DNA from: Gemmatimonadales bacterium
Lineage (GTDB): Bacteria > Gemmatimonadota > Gemmatimonadetes > Gemmatimonadales > GWC2-71-9
DNA: 64,000 nt
NCBI GenBank assembly: GCA_036265815.1
Contig: DATAOI010000052.1
Span: 62,001 to 126,000, forward strand
Direction: 5' to 3'
The position numbers and the translations under genes were made by a program. Shown here in pieces: positions 33,899 through 40,256 of the stretch; the stretch's first letter is position 1; each line of letters begins with the position of its first letter. The notes beneath the pieces were generated by a model. It did no database searches and was not told the DNA's origin. It saw only the letters and a list, made by a program, of their open reading frames with translations.

Positions 33899-35500
33899 AT
33901 GCTGCCTCCCCCAGCCATCCGTGGTCTCTTCCGCACCGATCAGCGCGCACGTGGCGCCTATGCCGAAGGCGCCGGGATCTTCAGGATCCTGCCCGCGGCC
34001 GTCTGCGTGCCCGCCGACCGGGAAGACCTCGCCTCGCTCTGCCATTGGGCGGCGACGCACCGCGTCCACCTGGTGCCGCGTGGGGCGGGCAGCGGCATGG
34101 GCGGCGGGAACGTCGGCGACGGCGTGGTGGTGGATCTCACCGGAATGCCTCGCCGGCGGGAGATCGATCCCGCCGCTCGGCGCGCCCGCACCAGCGCGAG
34201 CCTCACGCTGGCGGAGCTCAATTCGGCGGCCGACCCATACCGGCTCAGGCTCCCTCCCGACCCCTCCAGTGGCCGCTGGGCAACGCTCGGTGGCCTGGTC
34301 TCCACCAACGCGTCCGGCGCGCGATCGGTGCGCTACGGCAGCGTGCGCCGCTGGGTGGAGTCGCTGGAGCTGGTGACGGCGGATGGCGAGGTGGTCGAGC
34401 TCCGGCGCGGAGCCCCGCCGGTGACCGCGGCGGGGCCGTCCGCCCGCGCCATCGAGCGATTCGAGTCGGACGCCGCGCCGGCCGTTCGCGCGGCCAGCGA
34501 GGTGATCGCCGGACGCTTCCCCCGGACCCGGAAGAATTCCTCGGGCTATGCCCTGGACGCGTTTCTCGCCTCGGGCGACCTGCTCGACCTGGTGGTCGGG
34601 TCCGAAGGCACCCTCGCTCTGGTGACGGCGGTGGAGTGGCGGCTGGATCTCCTGCCGCTGCATCGCGCCGGTCTCCGCGTGGCGCTGCGCTCGCTGGACG
34701 GCCTGAGCGACGCCGTCGCCGCACTGCTGACCCACGAGCCCTCGGCACTGGAGCTGCTCGACCGGAGCTTCCTCGAGCTGGTCGGCGAATCCGGCAGCGA
34801 CGCGATGCTCCTGGTGGAGTTCGAGGGCGATTCATCCGACGACGTGCGGCGGCGGGTCCAGCGTGCCGCCGCCGCCATTCGCCCCCGGGCCGCGGGCGTC
34901 AACATCGGCCTGACCGAAGCGGCCGGCGAGCGGCTCTGGGCGCTGCGGCACGCGGCCAGCCCGATCCTCGCGCGGCTGCCGGAGGATCGCCGCTCGCTGC
35001 AGGTGATCGAGGACGGCTGTGTGCCGGTGGAGCGGATGGCGGAGTACGTGCGCGCGGTCCGCGCCGCGGCGGCGTCCCGCGGTCTTCAGGTGGTGATCTT
35101 CGGTCATGCCGGCGACGGCCACGTGCACGTGAACCTGCTGCCGGAGCTGGCCCGGGCGGACTGGGAGGACGCGGTCGCCTCGCTCCTGGAGGAGGTCACC
35201 GACACCCTCGTCCGGCTGGGCGGCACCCCCTCGGGCGAGCATGGTGACGGCCGGCTTCGGGCTGGCCTGCTGCCGCGGGTGTATGGGGAGGAGGTGGTCG
35301 CGCTCTTCCAGCGGGTGAAGCGCGCCTTCGATCCCCTCGGAATTCTCAATCCCGGCGTTATCCTTCCGTCCGGCCAGCCGGCGGTGAGCCGGCTCAAGGT
35401 GGGCGCGCACGCCCTGGCACTTCCCGCGGACATCGCCCACGGGCTCCGGGAGATCGAGCAGACCGGCGGATACGCCCGGAGCCGGTTGGAGCTGGCATGA
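33899..35500 (+). CDS. FAD-linked oxidase of the GlcD / D-lactate dehydrogenase type
   Basis: A 533-residue flavoprotein oxidising a 2-hydroxy acid. The FAD-binding PCMH domain spans about 30-215 (LVPRGAGSGMGGGNVGDGVV, TLGGLVSTNASGARSVRYG, GSEGTLALVTAVE). The C-terminal FAD-linked oxidase domain spans about 255-490, with IFGHAGDGHVHVNLLPE, TPSGEHGDGRLRAG and FDPLGILNPG. The C-terminal CCG iron-sulphur domain of fused GlcD/GlcF enzymes is absent, so electron transfer would need a partner. Substrate could be glycolate, D-lactate or a related acid. Its stop overlaps an in-frame ATG of the thyX region. Confidence 0.93.
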   Translation: MLPPPAIRGLFRTDQRARGAYAEGAGIFRILPAAVCVPADREDLASLCHWAATHRVHLVPRGAGSGMGGGNVGDGVVVDLTGMPRRREIDPAARRARTSASLTLAELNSAADPYRLRLPPDPSSGRWATLGGLVSTNASGARSVRYGSVRRWVESLELVTADGEVVELRRGAPPVTAAGPSARAIERFESDAAPAVRAASEVIAGRFPRTRKNSSGYALDAFLASGDLLDLVVGSEGTLALVTAVEWRLDLLPLHRAGLRVALRSLDGLSDAVAALLTHEPSALELLDRSFLELVGESGSDAMLLVEFEGDSSDDVRRRVQRAAAAIRPRAAGVNIGLTEAAGERLWALRHAASPILARLPEDRRSLQVIEDGCVPVERMAEYVRAVRAAAASRGLQVVIFGHAGDGHVHVNLLPELARADWEDAVASLLEEVTDTLVRLGGTPSGEHGDGRLRAGLLPRVYGEEVVALFQRVKRAFDPLGILNPGVILPSGQPAVSRLKVGAHALALPADIAHGLREIEQTGGYARSRLELA

Positions 35501-35556
35501 GGCACCCGAGCGCCGCTCCAAGCGGCCCTTCTCATCATTCAACCACGTCACGCCCC

Positions 35557-36309
35557 ATGGACATCATCCGCGAGCCTCGCGTCACACTCATCGCCCGTCC
35601 TCAGTTTCTCGAGCCGAGCCATCTGGCGGTCCAGTGGAAGGGCGACTCCAGCGACGGTGAGCGGATCGCGGAGTTCGCCGGGCGACTCTGCTACATGAGC
35701 CAGCACAATCCGGCGGGGCGGACGACGGCGGAATACCTCCGGAACATCCTCAGCCAGGGACACGGGTCGGTCTTCGAGCACTCCACCTACGTCATGCTGA
35801 TCGAAGGGATCTCCCGTTCCTGCAGTCACGAGCTGGTGCGCCACCGGGCCGGGTGGGGCTACTCCCAGCTCTCCCAGCGCTACGTCGACGAGTCCCATGC
35901 CGCCTTCGTGATGCCGCCGGCGATCCTGGGCGACGCGGCGCTGGAGGCGGAGTGGACGGCGCAGGTGCAGGCGGCCCAGGCCGCCTACGTCGGCGCGGTG
36001 GAGCATCTGATGACCCGCTACGCCTGGGTGAGCGACAAGGTGCATCGGAGGAAGCTGGCGCGGGAGGCGGCGCGGAGCGTGCTGCCCAATGCCACCGAGG
36101 TGAAGATCGTGGCGAGCGCCAACGTCCGCGCCTGGCGCACCATGCTCGAGCTGCGTCTGGGCGAGGGGGCGGAGCTGGAGATCCGGCGGATGGCGGTGGC
36201 CTGTCTTCGCCGGCTGCAGGCGGAGGCGCCCGCGCTGTTCGACGACTTCGAGCTCTACGCCTCCGCCGAGGGCGGTGAGGCGGGACGCGTCGGGTATCAC
36301 AAGGTGTGA
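35557..36309 (+). CDS. thyX: Flavin-dependent thymidylate synthase
   Basis: A 250-residue FAD-dependent enzyme methylating dUMP to dTMP using methylene-tetrahydrofolate and NADPH. The family signature region reads RHRAGWGYSQLSQRY (RHR followed by eight residues then Ser). Flanking motifs include GHGSVFEHSTYVMLIEGISR and PNATEVKIVASANVRAW; the C-terminus has ELRLGEGAELEIRRMA. I use ATG 35557; an upstream ATG at 35497 overlaps the flavoprotein stop and would add 20 residues of weak content. thyA is not in the window. Confidence 0.94.
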   Translation: MDIIREPRVTLIARPQFLEPSHLAVQWKGDSSDGERIAEFAGRLCYMSQHNPAGRTTAEYLRNILSQGHGSVFEHSTYVMLIEGISRSCSHELVRHRAGWGYSQLSQRYVDESHAAFVMPPAILGDAALEAEWTAQVQAAQAAYVGAVEHLMTRYAWVSDKVHRRKLAREAARSVLPNATEVKIVASANVRAWRTMLELRLGEGAELEIRRMAVACLRRLQAEAPALFDDFELYASAEGGEAGRVGYHKV

Positions 36310-36367
36310 GCGTCGTCACGACGAGCGCGCGCGATGGGAATTCGCGTCGCGACTTTCGCAAAACCTA

Positions 36368-36396
36368 TTGTGCGACCGAAGCCTTTTTCTTAACTT
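36368..36396 (+). promoter_or_regulatory. Candidate promoter of the ATP-grasp operon
   Basis: TTGTGC (36368-36373) and TAACTT (36391-36396) with a 17-bp spacer lie in an AT-rich island of the 157-bp gap after thyX. Transcription would start near 36403, giving a leader of about 64 nt that contains the terminator described next. Confidence 0.45.
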
Positions 36397-36424
36397 AGTT
36401 TCGTCGAAGCAGTCAACTCGTCGC

Positions 36425-36452
36425 GGCTCGTCTCTCGCAGACGGCCTTTTTT
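36425..36452 (+). terminator. Rho-independent terminator placed 3 bp before a ribosome-binding site
   Basis: GGC-T-CGTCT and AGACG-GCC (36425-36433 and 36439-36446) pair with one bulged T around the pentaloop CTCGC and are followed by six T (36447-36452). The Shine-Dalgarno AGAGGGA of the next gene starts at 36455. The position is unusual for a terminator that only ends thyX and fits a leader attenuator. Confidence 0.7.
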
Positions 36453-36466
36453 GTAGAGGGACACCT

Positions 36467-37567
36467 TTGGCAGTTCGGATCGGACTCGCCTTCAATCTCA
36501 AACCTACGGCGCCGGCTAGTCCAGCCGGGGCGACTCCCGACTCCCCCTCTCCCGACGAACCCAGCCGGTCGCTGCGCTCCGATCTTTCCCAGCCCGATCT
36601 CTATGCCGAGTGGGACGAGCCCGCCACCATCGACGCGGTGGAGCAGGCGCTCAGCTCGGTCGGCCAGGTCTACCGGCTGGAGGCCAACGCCAGCTTCCCC
36701 GCGCGGCTCGCGCTCATCCGCCCCGACTTCGTCTTCAACATCGCCGAAGGGCTGTACGGCCCCAACCGCGAGGGCCACGTTCCGGCCATCTGCGAGTTTC
36801 TCGGCGTCCCCTGTCACGCCTCCGATCCGCTCACCCTCGGGCTCGCCCTCGACAAGCGGCGCGCCAAGGAGGTGCTGACGTATCACGGCGTGCCCACGGC
36901 CCCCTTCATCCTGGCCCGGAGCCCGGATGATGCGCGCAACGTGCAGCTCCCGTTTCCGCTCTTCGTCAAGCCGGCGTTCGAGGGATCGGGCAAGGGCGTC
37001 AGCGTCCGGAGCGTCTGTAAGAACCGCACCCAGCTGGTCCGCCAGGTCGCCAGCCTGCTCGCCACCTACGCGGAGCCGGTGCTCATCGAGACCTATCTCC
37101 CGGGTCCCGAGTTCACCGTCGCGGTGCTCGGCAACGACGAGGAGGCGCGCTGCCTGCCCATCGTCGGCATGGACTTTGATACGCTGCCGCCGGGTGCGCC
37201 GCCGATCTACGGCTACGAAGCGAAGTGGCTGTGGGACTCGCCGAGCCATCCTCTGGAGATCTTCGATTGCCCGGCCCCGATCTCTGACGCACTGGCCGAG
37301 CACATCCGCGCCGCCGCCTTGGGCGCCTACCACGCCTTGGAATGCCGCGACTGGTGCCGCGTCGATATTCGCTGCGACGCTGACCATCGCCCGATGGTCG
37401 TCGAATTGAATCCGCTGCCGGGCATTTTGCCCGATCCGCGGGACAATTCCTGCTTCCCCAAGGCCGCGCGGGCCGCCGGGATCAGCTACGACGATCTCAT
37501 CCGCACCGTCGCCGACATCGCCTGGCGCCGGATCAGCGGCCGTTCTCTCCTGGCGGAGGTAGCCTGA
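36467..37567 (+). CDS. ATP-grasp ligase of the D-Ala-D-Ala ligase superfamily, first copy
   Basis: A 366-residue ATP-dependent amide/ester-forming ligase. The start is TTG 36467, supported by AGAGGGA 5 nt upstream and by homology beginning at once (VRIGLAFNLKP). ATP-grasp motifs: FVKPAFEGSGKGVSV, VLIETYLPGPEFTVAV, YGYEAKWLWD and the Mg-binding DIRCDADHRPMVVELNPLPG. The Ddl glycine/serine loop (GSSVGM) is changed to GSGKGV and the N-terminal catalytic Glu segment is missing, so it is probably not a D-Ala-D-Ala ligase. Its stop overlaps the next start (TGATG). Substrates unknown; context suggests an amino acid or beta-amino acid. Confidence 0.9.
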   Translation: MAVRIGLAFNLKPTAPASPAGATPDSPSPDEPSRSLRSDLSQPDLYAEWDEPATIDAVEQALSSVGQVYRLEANASFPARLALIRPDFVFNIAEGLYGPNREGHVPAICEFLGVPCHASDPLTLGLALDKRRAKEVLTYHGVPTAPFILARSPDDARNVQLPFPLFVKPAFEGSGKGVSVRSVCKNRTQLVRQVASLLATYAEPVLIETYLPGPEFTVAVLGNDEEARCLPIVGMDFDTLPPGAPPIYGYEAKWLWDSPSHPLEIFDCPAPISDALAEHIRAAALGAYHALECRDWCRVDIRCDADHRPMVVELNPLPGILPDPRDNSCFPKAARAAGISYDDLIRTVADIAWRRISGRSLLAEVA

Positions 37568-38577
37568 TGCGAGTTGCGATCCTGTACGATGCAGGCAGCG
37601 ATGAGTGGAGTCCCCAGGACGTGGCCGCGGTGGTCGGCAACGTCCACGAGATCCGCGACGTGCTCCGCCGTCGGGGGCACGAGGTGGACCTCCTGCCGGT
37701 CCGCCTGGGCGATTTCCGCTGGCTTTCACGCGCCCGCCGGGCCGACCTCGTCTTCAACCTGTGCGAGGGGATCAACGGCCACGCCAAGTACGAGGACCTC
37801 GTCGTCGCGACCCTGGAGCTGAGCGGCGTCCCCTTTACCGGATGCCGCACCTGGCCCACCACCGTCTGCCACCGGAAGCACGTGGCCAACACCCTGCTCT
37901 CCGCGGCGGGGCTCCCGGTGCCGGCCTTCGCCCTGGCCCAGGCCAACAAGACACCGTCGGAGTTTCCCCTGCCCGCCATCGTGAAGCCCTCGGCGGAAGA
38001 TGCGAGCGTGGGGATCGATAACGGGGCGGTCTGCACCTCCAAGCGGGCGCTCAAGAAGCGGGTCGCCCAGATGCTGGAGCAGTTCGAAGAGGTGCTGGTC
38101 CAGGAATACGTGGCCGGCCGGGAGTTCAACGTCGGCTTCGTCGGACAGCGGATGCTGCCCATCGCCGAGATCCGGTTCGAAGGCATGCCCGACGGCACCT
38201 GGCCCATCGTGAGCTACGCCGCCAAGTGGCTGCCGGGAAGCCCGGAGGATGAAGGCACCGTGCCGATCTGCCCCGCCGACATCCCCGAGGATCTGGCCAA
38301 CCGGGTCGCCGCGGTGGCGCGGGACGCCTGGCTCCATATGTGTGGCGGCGAGGGATACGGCCGGGTCGATCTGCGGGTCAATGACGATGGGCAGCCGTAC
38401 GTGCTCGAAGTGAATCCCGGTCCGGACCTCTCCAGCAACGCCGGTCTCGCCCGGATGGGCCGAGCCTTCGGCTGGAGCTACGACGAGCTGGTCATGCAGG
38501 TCGTGGACGAGGCACTCATGCGGTCTCAGAGCCACAGCGCCGCCGCCGCCCTGGTCAGTGGGGTGTCCGCCGCGTGA
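37567..38577 (+). CDS. ATP-grasp ligase of the D-Ala-D-Ala ligase superfamily, second copy
   Basis: A 336-residue paralogue of the preceding ligase, coupled to it by TGATG. Motifs include VFNLCEGINGHAKYED, AIVKPSAEDASVGID (here the serine loop SVG is kept), VLVQEYVAGREFNVGF, SYAAKWLPGS and the metal site GRVDLRVNDDGQPYVLEVNPG. The N-terminus lacks the AEREVS motif of true Ddl. The two copies are distinct in their active-site loops, so they may act in sequence on different substrates. The end overlaps the GNAT start (GTGA). Confidence 0.9.
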   Translation: MRVAILYDAGSDEWSPQDVAAVVGNVHEIRDVLRRRGHEVDLLPVRLGDFRWLSRARRADLVFNLCEGINGHAKYEDLVVATLELSGVPFTGCRTWPTTVCHRKHVANTLLSAAGLPVPAFALAQANKTPSEFPLPAIVKPSAEDASVGIDNGAVCTSKRALKKRVAQMLEQFEEVLVQEYVAGREFNVGFVGQRMLPIAEIRFEGMPDGTWPIVSYAAKWLPGSPEDEGTVPICPADIPEDLANRVAAVARDAWLHMCGGEGYGRVDLRVNDDGQPYVLEVNPGPDLSSNAGLARMGRAFGWSYDELVMQVVDEALMRSQSHSAAAALVSGVSAA

Positions 38578-39071
38578 GCGGCACCCTGACCTCCGCTGTC
38601 CTTCGCACCCTCAACGCCGCCGACCGCGGCCGCATCGAGGAGATCACCCGTGCGGCCGGGCTCTTCCGCGAGGAGGAGATCCCGGTCGCCCTCGAGGTCT
38701 TCGATGGCGCGGTGGCCGGTTCACCCGACTATATCGCGCTGGGGGCCGAGCACGAGGGATCCCTGGCGGGGTGGATCTGCTGGGGTCCCACCCCGTGCAC
38801 CCTGGGCACCTACGACCTCTATTGGATGGCCGTGGACCCGGCGCGCCAGCGGGCCGGCATCGGCACCGCGCTCCTCCATGGCATGGAGCGGCGCCTGATC
38901 GGCATCGCCCGGCTCATCGTGGTGGAAACCGCCGGCCGCCCCGACTACCGGGGCACCCGGGCCTTCTACCAGGCCCGCGGGTACGCGGTCGCGGCCACCA
39001 TCCCCAATTTCTACGCGCCGGGCGACGATCAGGTCGTCTACGTGAAGTCCCTCTCCACTCGCAGTCGATAG
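38574..39071 (+). CDS. GNAT-family N-acetyltransferase
   Basis: A 165-residue acetyltransferase, start GTG 38574 overlapping the previous stop. The acetyl-CoA-binding region is MAVDPARQRAGIGTALLHGM (a Q-x-x-G-x-G/A variant), and the closing motif is GTRAFYQARGYAVAATIPNFY. It should transfer acetyl to an amine. In methanogens and some bacteria a GNAT (AblB) next to lysine 2,3-aminomutase (AblA) acetylates beta-lysine to an osmolyte. Here two ATP-grasp ligases share the operon, so the acceptor may differ. Confidence 0.9.
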   Translation: MSGTLTSAVLRTLNAADRGRIEEITRAAGLFREEEIPVALEVFDGAVAGSPDYIALGAEHEGSLAGWICWGPTPCTLGTYDLYWMAVDPARQRAGIGTALLHGMERRLIGIARLIVVETAGRPDYRGTRAFYQARGYAVAATIPNFYAPGDDQVVYVKSLSTRSR

Positions 39072-39092: not shown

Positions 39093-40256
39093 ATGGAGAG
39101 CTGGCAGGAGGTCCTCAAGAAGAACTCCATCATGTCGCTGGAGGCGCTCGCGGCCAAGTTCGGTCCGGAGCATTTCCCCGACCTCGACCGTCTCCGCCAG
39201 GCCGCGGAGAACTTCGAGTTCCGGATCTCGCCCGCCATGGTCGACCTGATCAAGTCGCCCGACGACCCGATCTGGCGGCAGTACGTCCCCACCGTCGAGG
39301 AGCTGAACGTGGTGGACGGCATGGTGGACTCGCTCAACGAGGACGCGGATAGTCCGGTGCCCAACATCACCCACCGGTATCCCGACCGGGCGCTCTTCCT
39401 GGTGTCCCCGGTCTGCGCCAGCTACTGCCGCTTCTGTACCCGGCGGCGCAAGGTGGGCGATCCCGAGAAGATCCCGATGTCGCAGTTCGAGTCCGCGTTC
39501 CAGTATCTGGAGCAGCACACCGAAATCCGCGACGTCATCATGTCGGGTGGCGACCCGCTGCTGTTGAACGACCGGCGGCTCGACGCCATCCTGACCCGGC
39601 TCCGGGCCATCCCGCACCTCCAGATCATCCGGATCGGCAGCCGGATCCCCTGCCACCTGCCCGAGCGGATCACTCCGGAGCTGTGTGCCACGCTCAAGCG
39701 CTTCCATCCGCTCTTCATCAATACCCACTTCAACCATCCCGACGAGCTCACACCAGCCGCCGTTCACGGTCTGGGCATGCTGGCCGATGCCGGTATCCCG
39801 CTGGGCTGCCAGACGGTACTGCTCAAGGGCGTGAACGACGATCCGATGGTCATGAAGGAACTGATGCAGCGGCTGCTGATGGCCCGGGTGCGCCCCTACT
39901 ACATCTATATGGCCGATCAGGTGGCAGGGGGAGAGCACTTCCGGACCAGTGTCCAGGCCGGCATCCGAATCATGGAGGCGCTGCGCGGCTGGACCAGCGG
40001 GTTGGCCAATCCTTACTTCGTGATCGATGCCCCGGGCGGCGGCGGCAAGATCCCGCTGCTTCCCCAGTACGTGATCAGCATGACGGACGAGGAGGTCGTG
40101 CTGCGGAATTTCCGGGGGCAGCGATACGTCTACCGGCAGCCCCAGGAGACGGCGGTCGGGGCCCGTACGACCGACCCCGAATACCTCGTTCAGCCCGGCT
40201 TCGAGATGCGGCAGGAGCGCAGGCGCCCCGTCAAGCCGAAGCGGGAGACCGCCTGA
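39093..40256 (+). CDS. Lysine 2,3-aminomutase-family radical SAM enzyme
   Basis: A 387-residue radical SAM, PLP-dependent aminomutase (KamA family). The cluster motif is CASYCRFCTRRR (C-x3-C-x2-C). The PLP lysine is in APGGGGKIPLLPQYV. The Asp residues that bind the lysine side-chain amine in clostridial LAM appear to be kept (YYIYMADQV and YFVIDAPGG), which favours L-lysine over glutamate as substrate. Product would be L-beta-lysine. It follows the GNAT by 22 bp. A 40-residue basic C-terminal extension (RRRPVKPKRE) is notable. The 3' end overlaps the convergent DUF2784 gene by 26 bp. Confidence 0.92.
   Translation: MESWQEVLKKNSIMSLEALAAKFGPEHFPDLDRLRQAAENFEFRISPAMVDLIKSPDDPIWRQYVPTVEELNVVDGMVDSLNEDADSPVPNITHRYPDRALFLVSPVCASYCRFCTRRRKVGDPEKIPMSQFESAFQYLEQHTEIRDVIMSGGDPLLLNDRRLDAILTRLRAIPHLQIIRIGSRIPCHLPERITPELCATLKRFHPLFINTHFNHPDELTPAAVHGLGMLADAGIPLGCQTVLLKGVNDDPMVMKELMQRLLMARVRPYYIYMADQVAGGEHFRTSVQAGIRIMEALRGWTSGLANPYFVIDAPGGGGKIPLLPQYVISMTDEEVVLRNFRGQRYVYRQPQETAVGARTTDPEYLVQPGFEMRQERRRPVKPKRETA

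Follow-up and report, generated by a model that had tools for sequence, protein, structure and literature searches.

Why should an intrinsic terminator stand almost in contact with the ribosome-binding site of the gene that follows it? We encountered this arrangement in a 64,000-nt stretch of genomic DNA (henceforth the window) from an uncultured soil Gemmatimonadota bacterium, where a hairpin and a T-run directly precede an operon encoding two ATP-grasp (D-Ala-D-Ala ligase-like) proteins, a GNAT acetyltransferase and a lysine 2,3-aminomutase-like (KamA/AblA family) radical SAM protein (Table 1). The last of these passed the KamA subfamily model and failed the AblA equivalog (TIGR03820; 437 bits, below the equivalog cut-off of 525). 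For this type of operon, our literature search returned only papers on the osmolyte acetyl-beta-lysine, and by analogy the ATP-grasp/GNAT/KamA operon may possibly have an osmolyte role.

Table 1. Coordinates of the leader element, the surrounding genes and the Desulfuromonadales leader copies (positions refer to the window unless a locus is named).
Feature	Position	Strand	Evidence or remark
thyX (upstream context, outside the leader element)	35497..36309	+	TIGR02170 above cut-off
Predicted -35, TTGTGC	36368..36373	+	Inside conserved block AAAACCTATTGTGC; CTATTG[CT][AG][CT] in relatives across the family
Predicted -10, TAACTT	36391..36396	+	17 nt after the -35; TACTTT, TATTCT, TATCGT in relatives
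Predicted short terminated leader RNA	36403..36452	+	About 50 nt; transcription start (TSS) inferred at 36403 +/-2 from promoter position
Terminator hairpin	36425..36446	+	8 bp, one 5'-side bulge (T36428), loop CTCGC; terminator scan, RNAfold, compensatory stems in L016, L020, L023, L066
T6 tract of terminator	36447..36452	+	Genus-invariant; one of only 14 T6 tracts in 800 kb
Shine-Dalgarno (SD), AGAGGG	36455..36460	+	2 nt past the T-run; cassette GGCCTTTTTTGTAG[AG]RGG
ATP-grasp (D-Ala-D-Ala ligase-like) gene 1, TTG start	36467..37567	+	PF07478, 1.8e-33; TTGGCAGTTCGGAT conserved
ATP-grasp gene 2	37567..38577	+	PF07478, 6e-26
GNAT acetyltransferase gene	38574..39071	+	PF00583, 2.6e-9
Lysine 2,3-aminomutase-like (KamA/AblA family) radical SAM gene	39093..40256	+	TIGR00238 above cut-off
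Desulfuromonadales leader copies	L231-L241, L246-L264 (match from locus position 1501); L042:3841-4002		

The hairpin is built from GGC-T-CGTCT (36425-36433), the loop CTCGC (36434-36438) and AGACGGCC (36439-36446). RNAfold gave the structure (((.(((((.....)))))))) at -9.7 kcal/mol, a terminator scan picked up the same hairpin, and the T6 tract is followed by GT and then by AGAGGGA from 36455. The sequence and both programs thus bear out the initial annotation, which had described a bulged 8-bp stem, a CTCGC loop and six T ending at 36452, with the SD 2 nt further on; its remark that the leader lies in an AT-rich island unlike its surroundings also holds (GC 0.44 at 36357-36406 vs 0.69 for the whole window). 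In an 800-kb sample of the same genome (both strands), we counted just 14 T6 tracts, of which 6, including the window site, stood directly 3' of a hairpin of -9 kcal/mol or lower. A looser scan of the same 800 kb returned 116 terminator-like sites; 5 of them precede an SD and a possible start codon, and only the window site does so cleanly. The position of the terminator would on its own be unusual without being decisive, and we take the hairpin to be a real feature because it is conserved.

This conservation was assessed in relatives collected via the ATP-grasp protein, mostly metagenome-assembled genomes. We found the cassette of hairpin, T-run and SD in 37 distinct leaders, 16 from the clade of the window (clade 1) and 21 from a second clade (clade 2), so that the stem survives the check in relatives which the initial annotation had proposed. 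In clade 1 the stems vary while their changes compensate (i.e., CGTCT/AGACG in the window, CGCTC/GGGCG in L016, GCTTC/GAAGC in L066, CGTCCG/CGGACG in L020, and GGCTG/CAGCC plus TCGC/GCGG in L023), and when arms were swapped between leaders, a leader's own 3' arm paired better with its 5' arm in 43 of 56 combinations. The clade 2 hairpin (CCGC/GCGG, loops of 4-8 nt) is weak, at about -6 to -9 kcal/mol, and because its stem is invariant, RNAalifold applied to the whole clade-2 leader yielded no covariation. By a strict automatic count, 22 of the 37 leaders carry a single bulge on the 5' side and none on the 3' side. The hairpin loop and the leader body differ from genus to genus. Nearly every leader has its T-run fused to the SD, and the sequence of this T-run/SD cassette is almost unchanged across the two clades. 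Exact matches to GGCCTTTTTTGTAGRRGG in 102 family genomes occurred at this locus only, and near matches in three genomes of genus g3 (L162, L163, L164) turned out to be terminators of c-di-GMP-I riboswitches (RF01051, 54-62 bits). Genome-wide pattern searches, for the promoter and for the terminator-SD junction, likewise returned this locus, c-di-GMP riboswitches and weak matches at chance level.

Upstream of the hairpin lies a predicted promoter that would serve the same gene. Its 17-nt spacing agrees with aligned relatives: the block CTATTG[CT][AG][CT]-N-TTTC[TG]TA...., which fits a -35/17 nt/-10 arrangement, recurs 5' of the ATP-grasp gene, and the predicted promoter TTGTGC-17 nt-TA(A/C)(C/T)TT is kept across the family. 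The pattern of -35 and -10 blocks is unique within its own genome; a promoter scan gave no score for TTGTGC-17-TAACTT (36368-36396). A footprint of 7 genomes of the genus showed identities of mostly 0.8-1.0 at 36357-36406 and 36417-36456 (0.58 in the promoter spacer, 0.8-0.9 in the promoter), with most flanking non-coding blocks at 0.2-0.5, and 100% identity within the genus at 36427-36436 and 36447-36456. The candidate promoter put forward in the initial annotation stands, conserved and footprinted, whereas the accompanying leader of approximately 60 nt has to be shortened, with 44 nt from the inferred TSS to the start of the T-run (36-55 nt in relatives).

Several relatives keep the promoter and lack the terminator, namely L018, L022, L024-L026, L029, L104, L108, genus g3 and a short-leader clade. 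Genus g3 (L115, L117, L123-L125, L130, L131, L136, L137) is predicted to make a near-leaderless mRNA, with its -10 element TATTCT about 15 nt or less from the ATG. The short-leader clade (L145-L155, L033, L035, L039, L047, L050) has the same promoter and, in L145-L155, a leader of about 20 nt; several of its members carry a perfect or near-perfect hairpin, AACTCC/GGAGTT, around the SD, which to judge from its pairing could possibly be a translational alternative to the terminator. The presence of the promoter without the terminator in leaderless g3 and the short-leader clade implies that it belongs to the ATP-grasp gene, and the terminator, being absent from several promoter-keeping relatives, is therefore not essential. 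About 6 gains or losses of the cassette are needed on the ATP-grasp tree, with the clade-2 terminator labels set by hand since the automatic call undercounts weak hairpins. This distribution is consistent with a cassette that clades 1 and 2 inherited from their ancestor and that g3 and others lost.

The region around the start codon varied in other ways too. In L112-L144 (clade 2), codons 4-5 contain GGTCTC, complementary to a GAGACC just 5' of the ATG, and this pairing would place the start codon in a hairpin loop. In Bacteroidetes/Ignavibacteria relatives (L030, L031, L034, L037, L038) the ATP-grasp frame apparently opens with a conserved CTG, an unusual start codon, which comes after a GGAG SD.

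Given a promoter upstream on the same gene and a conserved stem and U-run before the start codon, we consider it fairly probable that the ATP-grasp/GNAT/KamA operon has in this element a promoter-proximal transcription attenuator. The hairpin has a conserved promoter on one side and the SD on the other, and its changes in related genera preserve pairing. Termination in vivo, which very probably restrains the operon, is our inference, as is regulation of the read-through fraction. RNA polymerase would start at about 36403 and make a leader of about 45 nt; the bulged hairpin would then form and, in some rounds of transcription, the polymerase would let go at the T-run. Only transcripts that read through would expose the SD next to it and the TTG start, which is weak and likewise conserved.

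What might set the read-through fraction? The initial annotation had proposed attenuation or antitermination, perhaps by lysine or the operon product; the conserved leader terminator behind a conserved promoter agrees with the first part of this proposal, whereas the search for a cis antiterminator does not, as upstream pairing of the 5' arm, the competing structure to be looked for, did not exceed dinucleotide shuffles (mean rank 0.72, clade 1). Nor did we find support for sensing of lysine or the operon product. No ATG, GTG or TTG occurs from the inferred TSS to the T-run, and hence there is no leader peptide of the kind used by trp/his-type ribosome-mediated attenuators; no Rfam riboswitch was found in the window at the gathering threshold, and a permissive Rfam search of the leader returned a lone chance match (isrD, 14.9 bits, E 1.4). 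A lysine riboswitch (L box) was rejected on the lack of an Rfam match and on a leader far too short for it. The lack of a cis antiterminator lowers the case for a switch in cis, while attenuators controlled in trans need no such pairing. With antiterminator, aptamer and leader peptide all lacking, control would most likely be exerted in trans, through a factor that binds RNA or polymerase and acts on the bulged hairpin, or by a physical condition such as ionic strength, which would fit the possible osmolyte role.

The same three negative searches also favour the main rival explanation, namely that the terminator is constitutive and leaky, lowering operon expression by a fixed factor and blocking read-through from upstream with no switch involved. 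The conservation of the weak TTG start and the patchy occurrence of the terminator on the tree point in the same direction. However, expression could be cut more simply by mutating the promoter, yet the promoter is intact, and fixed damping sits poorly with a T-run/SD cassette kept nearly letter for letter in two clades. We thus regard constitutive damping as a serious competitor that is nonetheless unlikely to be the right explanation.

A second possibility is that the hairpin is merely the 3' terminator of thyX and lies beside the next SD by accident. Indeed, thyX is found upstream of most terminator-bearing loci (35 of the 38 rows labelled T). Synteny nevertheless led us to reject this candidate, as the hairpin is tied in position to the ATP-grasp start and not to thyX, which lies at varying distances or gives way to other genes: the T-run lies 12-17 nt from the ATP-grasp start in 35 of 37 leaders (the exceptions being 36 nt in L016 and 60 nt in L014), whereas the distance from thyX to the terminator ranges in relatives from about 110 to 600 nt, reaching about 600 nt in L011. 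Furthermore, the conserved promoter stands between thyX and the hairpin, L019 has an ORF on the opposite strand between thyX and the promoter, and the upstream gene is glnA in L066 and thyA-folA in L023, both of which keep a terminator. A plain thyX terminator is thus very improbable, in agreement with the initial annotation, which had doubted it on grounds of position.

Could the leader act on translation instead? In read-through RNA, GUCUCUC of the 5' arm and loop could base-pair with GAGGGAC at the SD as a translational switch; this pairing is the minimum free energy fold of the window leader, and SD hairpins such as AACTCC/GGAGTT occur in some other clades. In clade 1, however, the SD is as accessible in the leaders as in their shuffled versions (mean rank 0.52), and we give a translational switch hardly any weight. 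That promoter and terminator together produce an independent small RNA of about 50 nt, as a promoter, a short body conserved within the genus and a terminator might suggest, is scarcely credible given a loop and body that diverge between genera, a T-run fused to the SD in nearly all leaders, and one copy per genome with no independent occurrence.

Beyond the family, orthologous operons in Desulfuromonadales are preceded by a different, larger leader of about 155-170 nt. A covariance model of this leader, built on 11 examples, matched in 45 of 136 genomes of the group with one copy each, and all 30 inspected copies stood directly before the ATP-grasp orthologue. Its basal stem covaries, with a leader's own strands pairing better than swapped ones in 746 of 820 divergent swaps. 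A conserved ACCCCTT can pair with the SD AAGGGGT, a helix which together with the basal stem would form a pseudoknot; being nearly invariant, this helix itself covaries little (326 of 552 swaps). The Desulfuromonadales leader had no Rfam match and is, on the sequence comparisons, a candidate unlisted cis-regulatory RNA. As a separate leader before the same operon, it supports the view that leader-RNA control of the ATP-grasp operon arose more than once.

Returning to the attenuator, a bolder idea, which we offer as speculation and consider rather doubtful, is that an antitermination factor not yet described targets the bulged terminator of about 50 nt itself, or that this terminator senses an ion directly, and that osmolyte synthesis is controlled in this way without a separate aptamer or antiterminator. 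Under the same idea, one operon would have evolved different leader-RNA devices across phyla: Gemmatimonadota would have a terminator or an SD hairpin, Desulfuromonadales an unlisted pseudoknot RNA that pairs with the SD.

Our literature search on RNA regulation in Gemmatimonadota found almost nothing, and the locus offers a comparatively supported case of predicted leader-terminator control in this phylum, on an operon resembling acetyl-beta-lysine osmolyte genes. Within one family, a single conserved promoter is combined with three leader designs (a terminator at the SD, an SD hairpin and a leaderless form), which constitute a natural series in which to study the function of such leaders. 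The sequence comparisons also turned up the unlisted structured RNA before the orthologous Desulfuromonadales operon.

Among known systems, the ablA gene (lysine 2,3-aminomutase) of Dehalobacter sp. CF is controlled by two terminators in its leader, which respond to Na+ and c-di-AMP (PMC9337991). This Na+-I/c-di-AMP tandem riboswitch resembles our locus in its KamA/AblA-family gene, its intrinsic terminators in the leader and its osmolyte context, but it contains two large aptamers, whereas the window leader measures about 44 nt to the T-run and matches no Rfam family. The HMP-PP (thiS motif) riboswitch, a terminator-embedded aptamer (PMC6478431), is similar in having a very short leader with almost nothing beyond a terminator. 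By contrast, the loop of the thiS motif is abnormally conserved and an alternative P1/pseudoknot exists, while the loop of our element differs from one genus to the next and its alternative folds do no better than shuffles. The likeness to the lysine riboswitch is confined to the lysine sensing proposed in the initial annotation. A further parallel comes from the same family: the c-di-GMP-I riboswitches of L162-L164 have a near-identical terminator-SD junction, GGCGGCCTTTTTTGTTAGGGG, and although there a real aptamer precedes the junction and none was found in the window leader, they provide, by analogy, a same-family precedent for a terminator-SD junction that serves as an expression platform.
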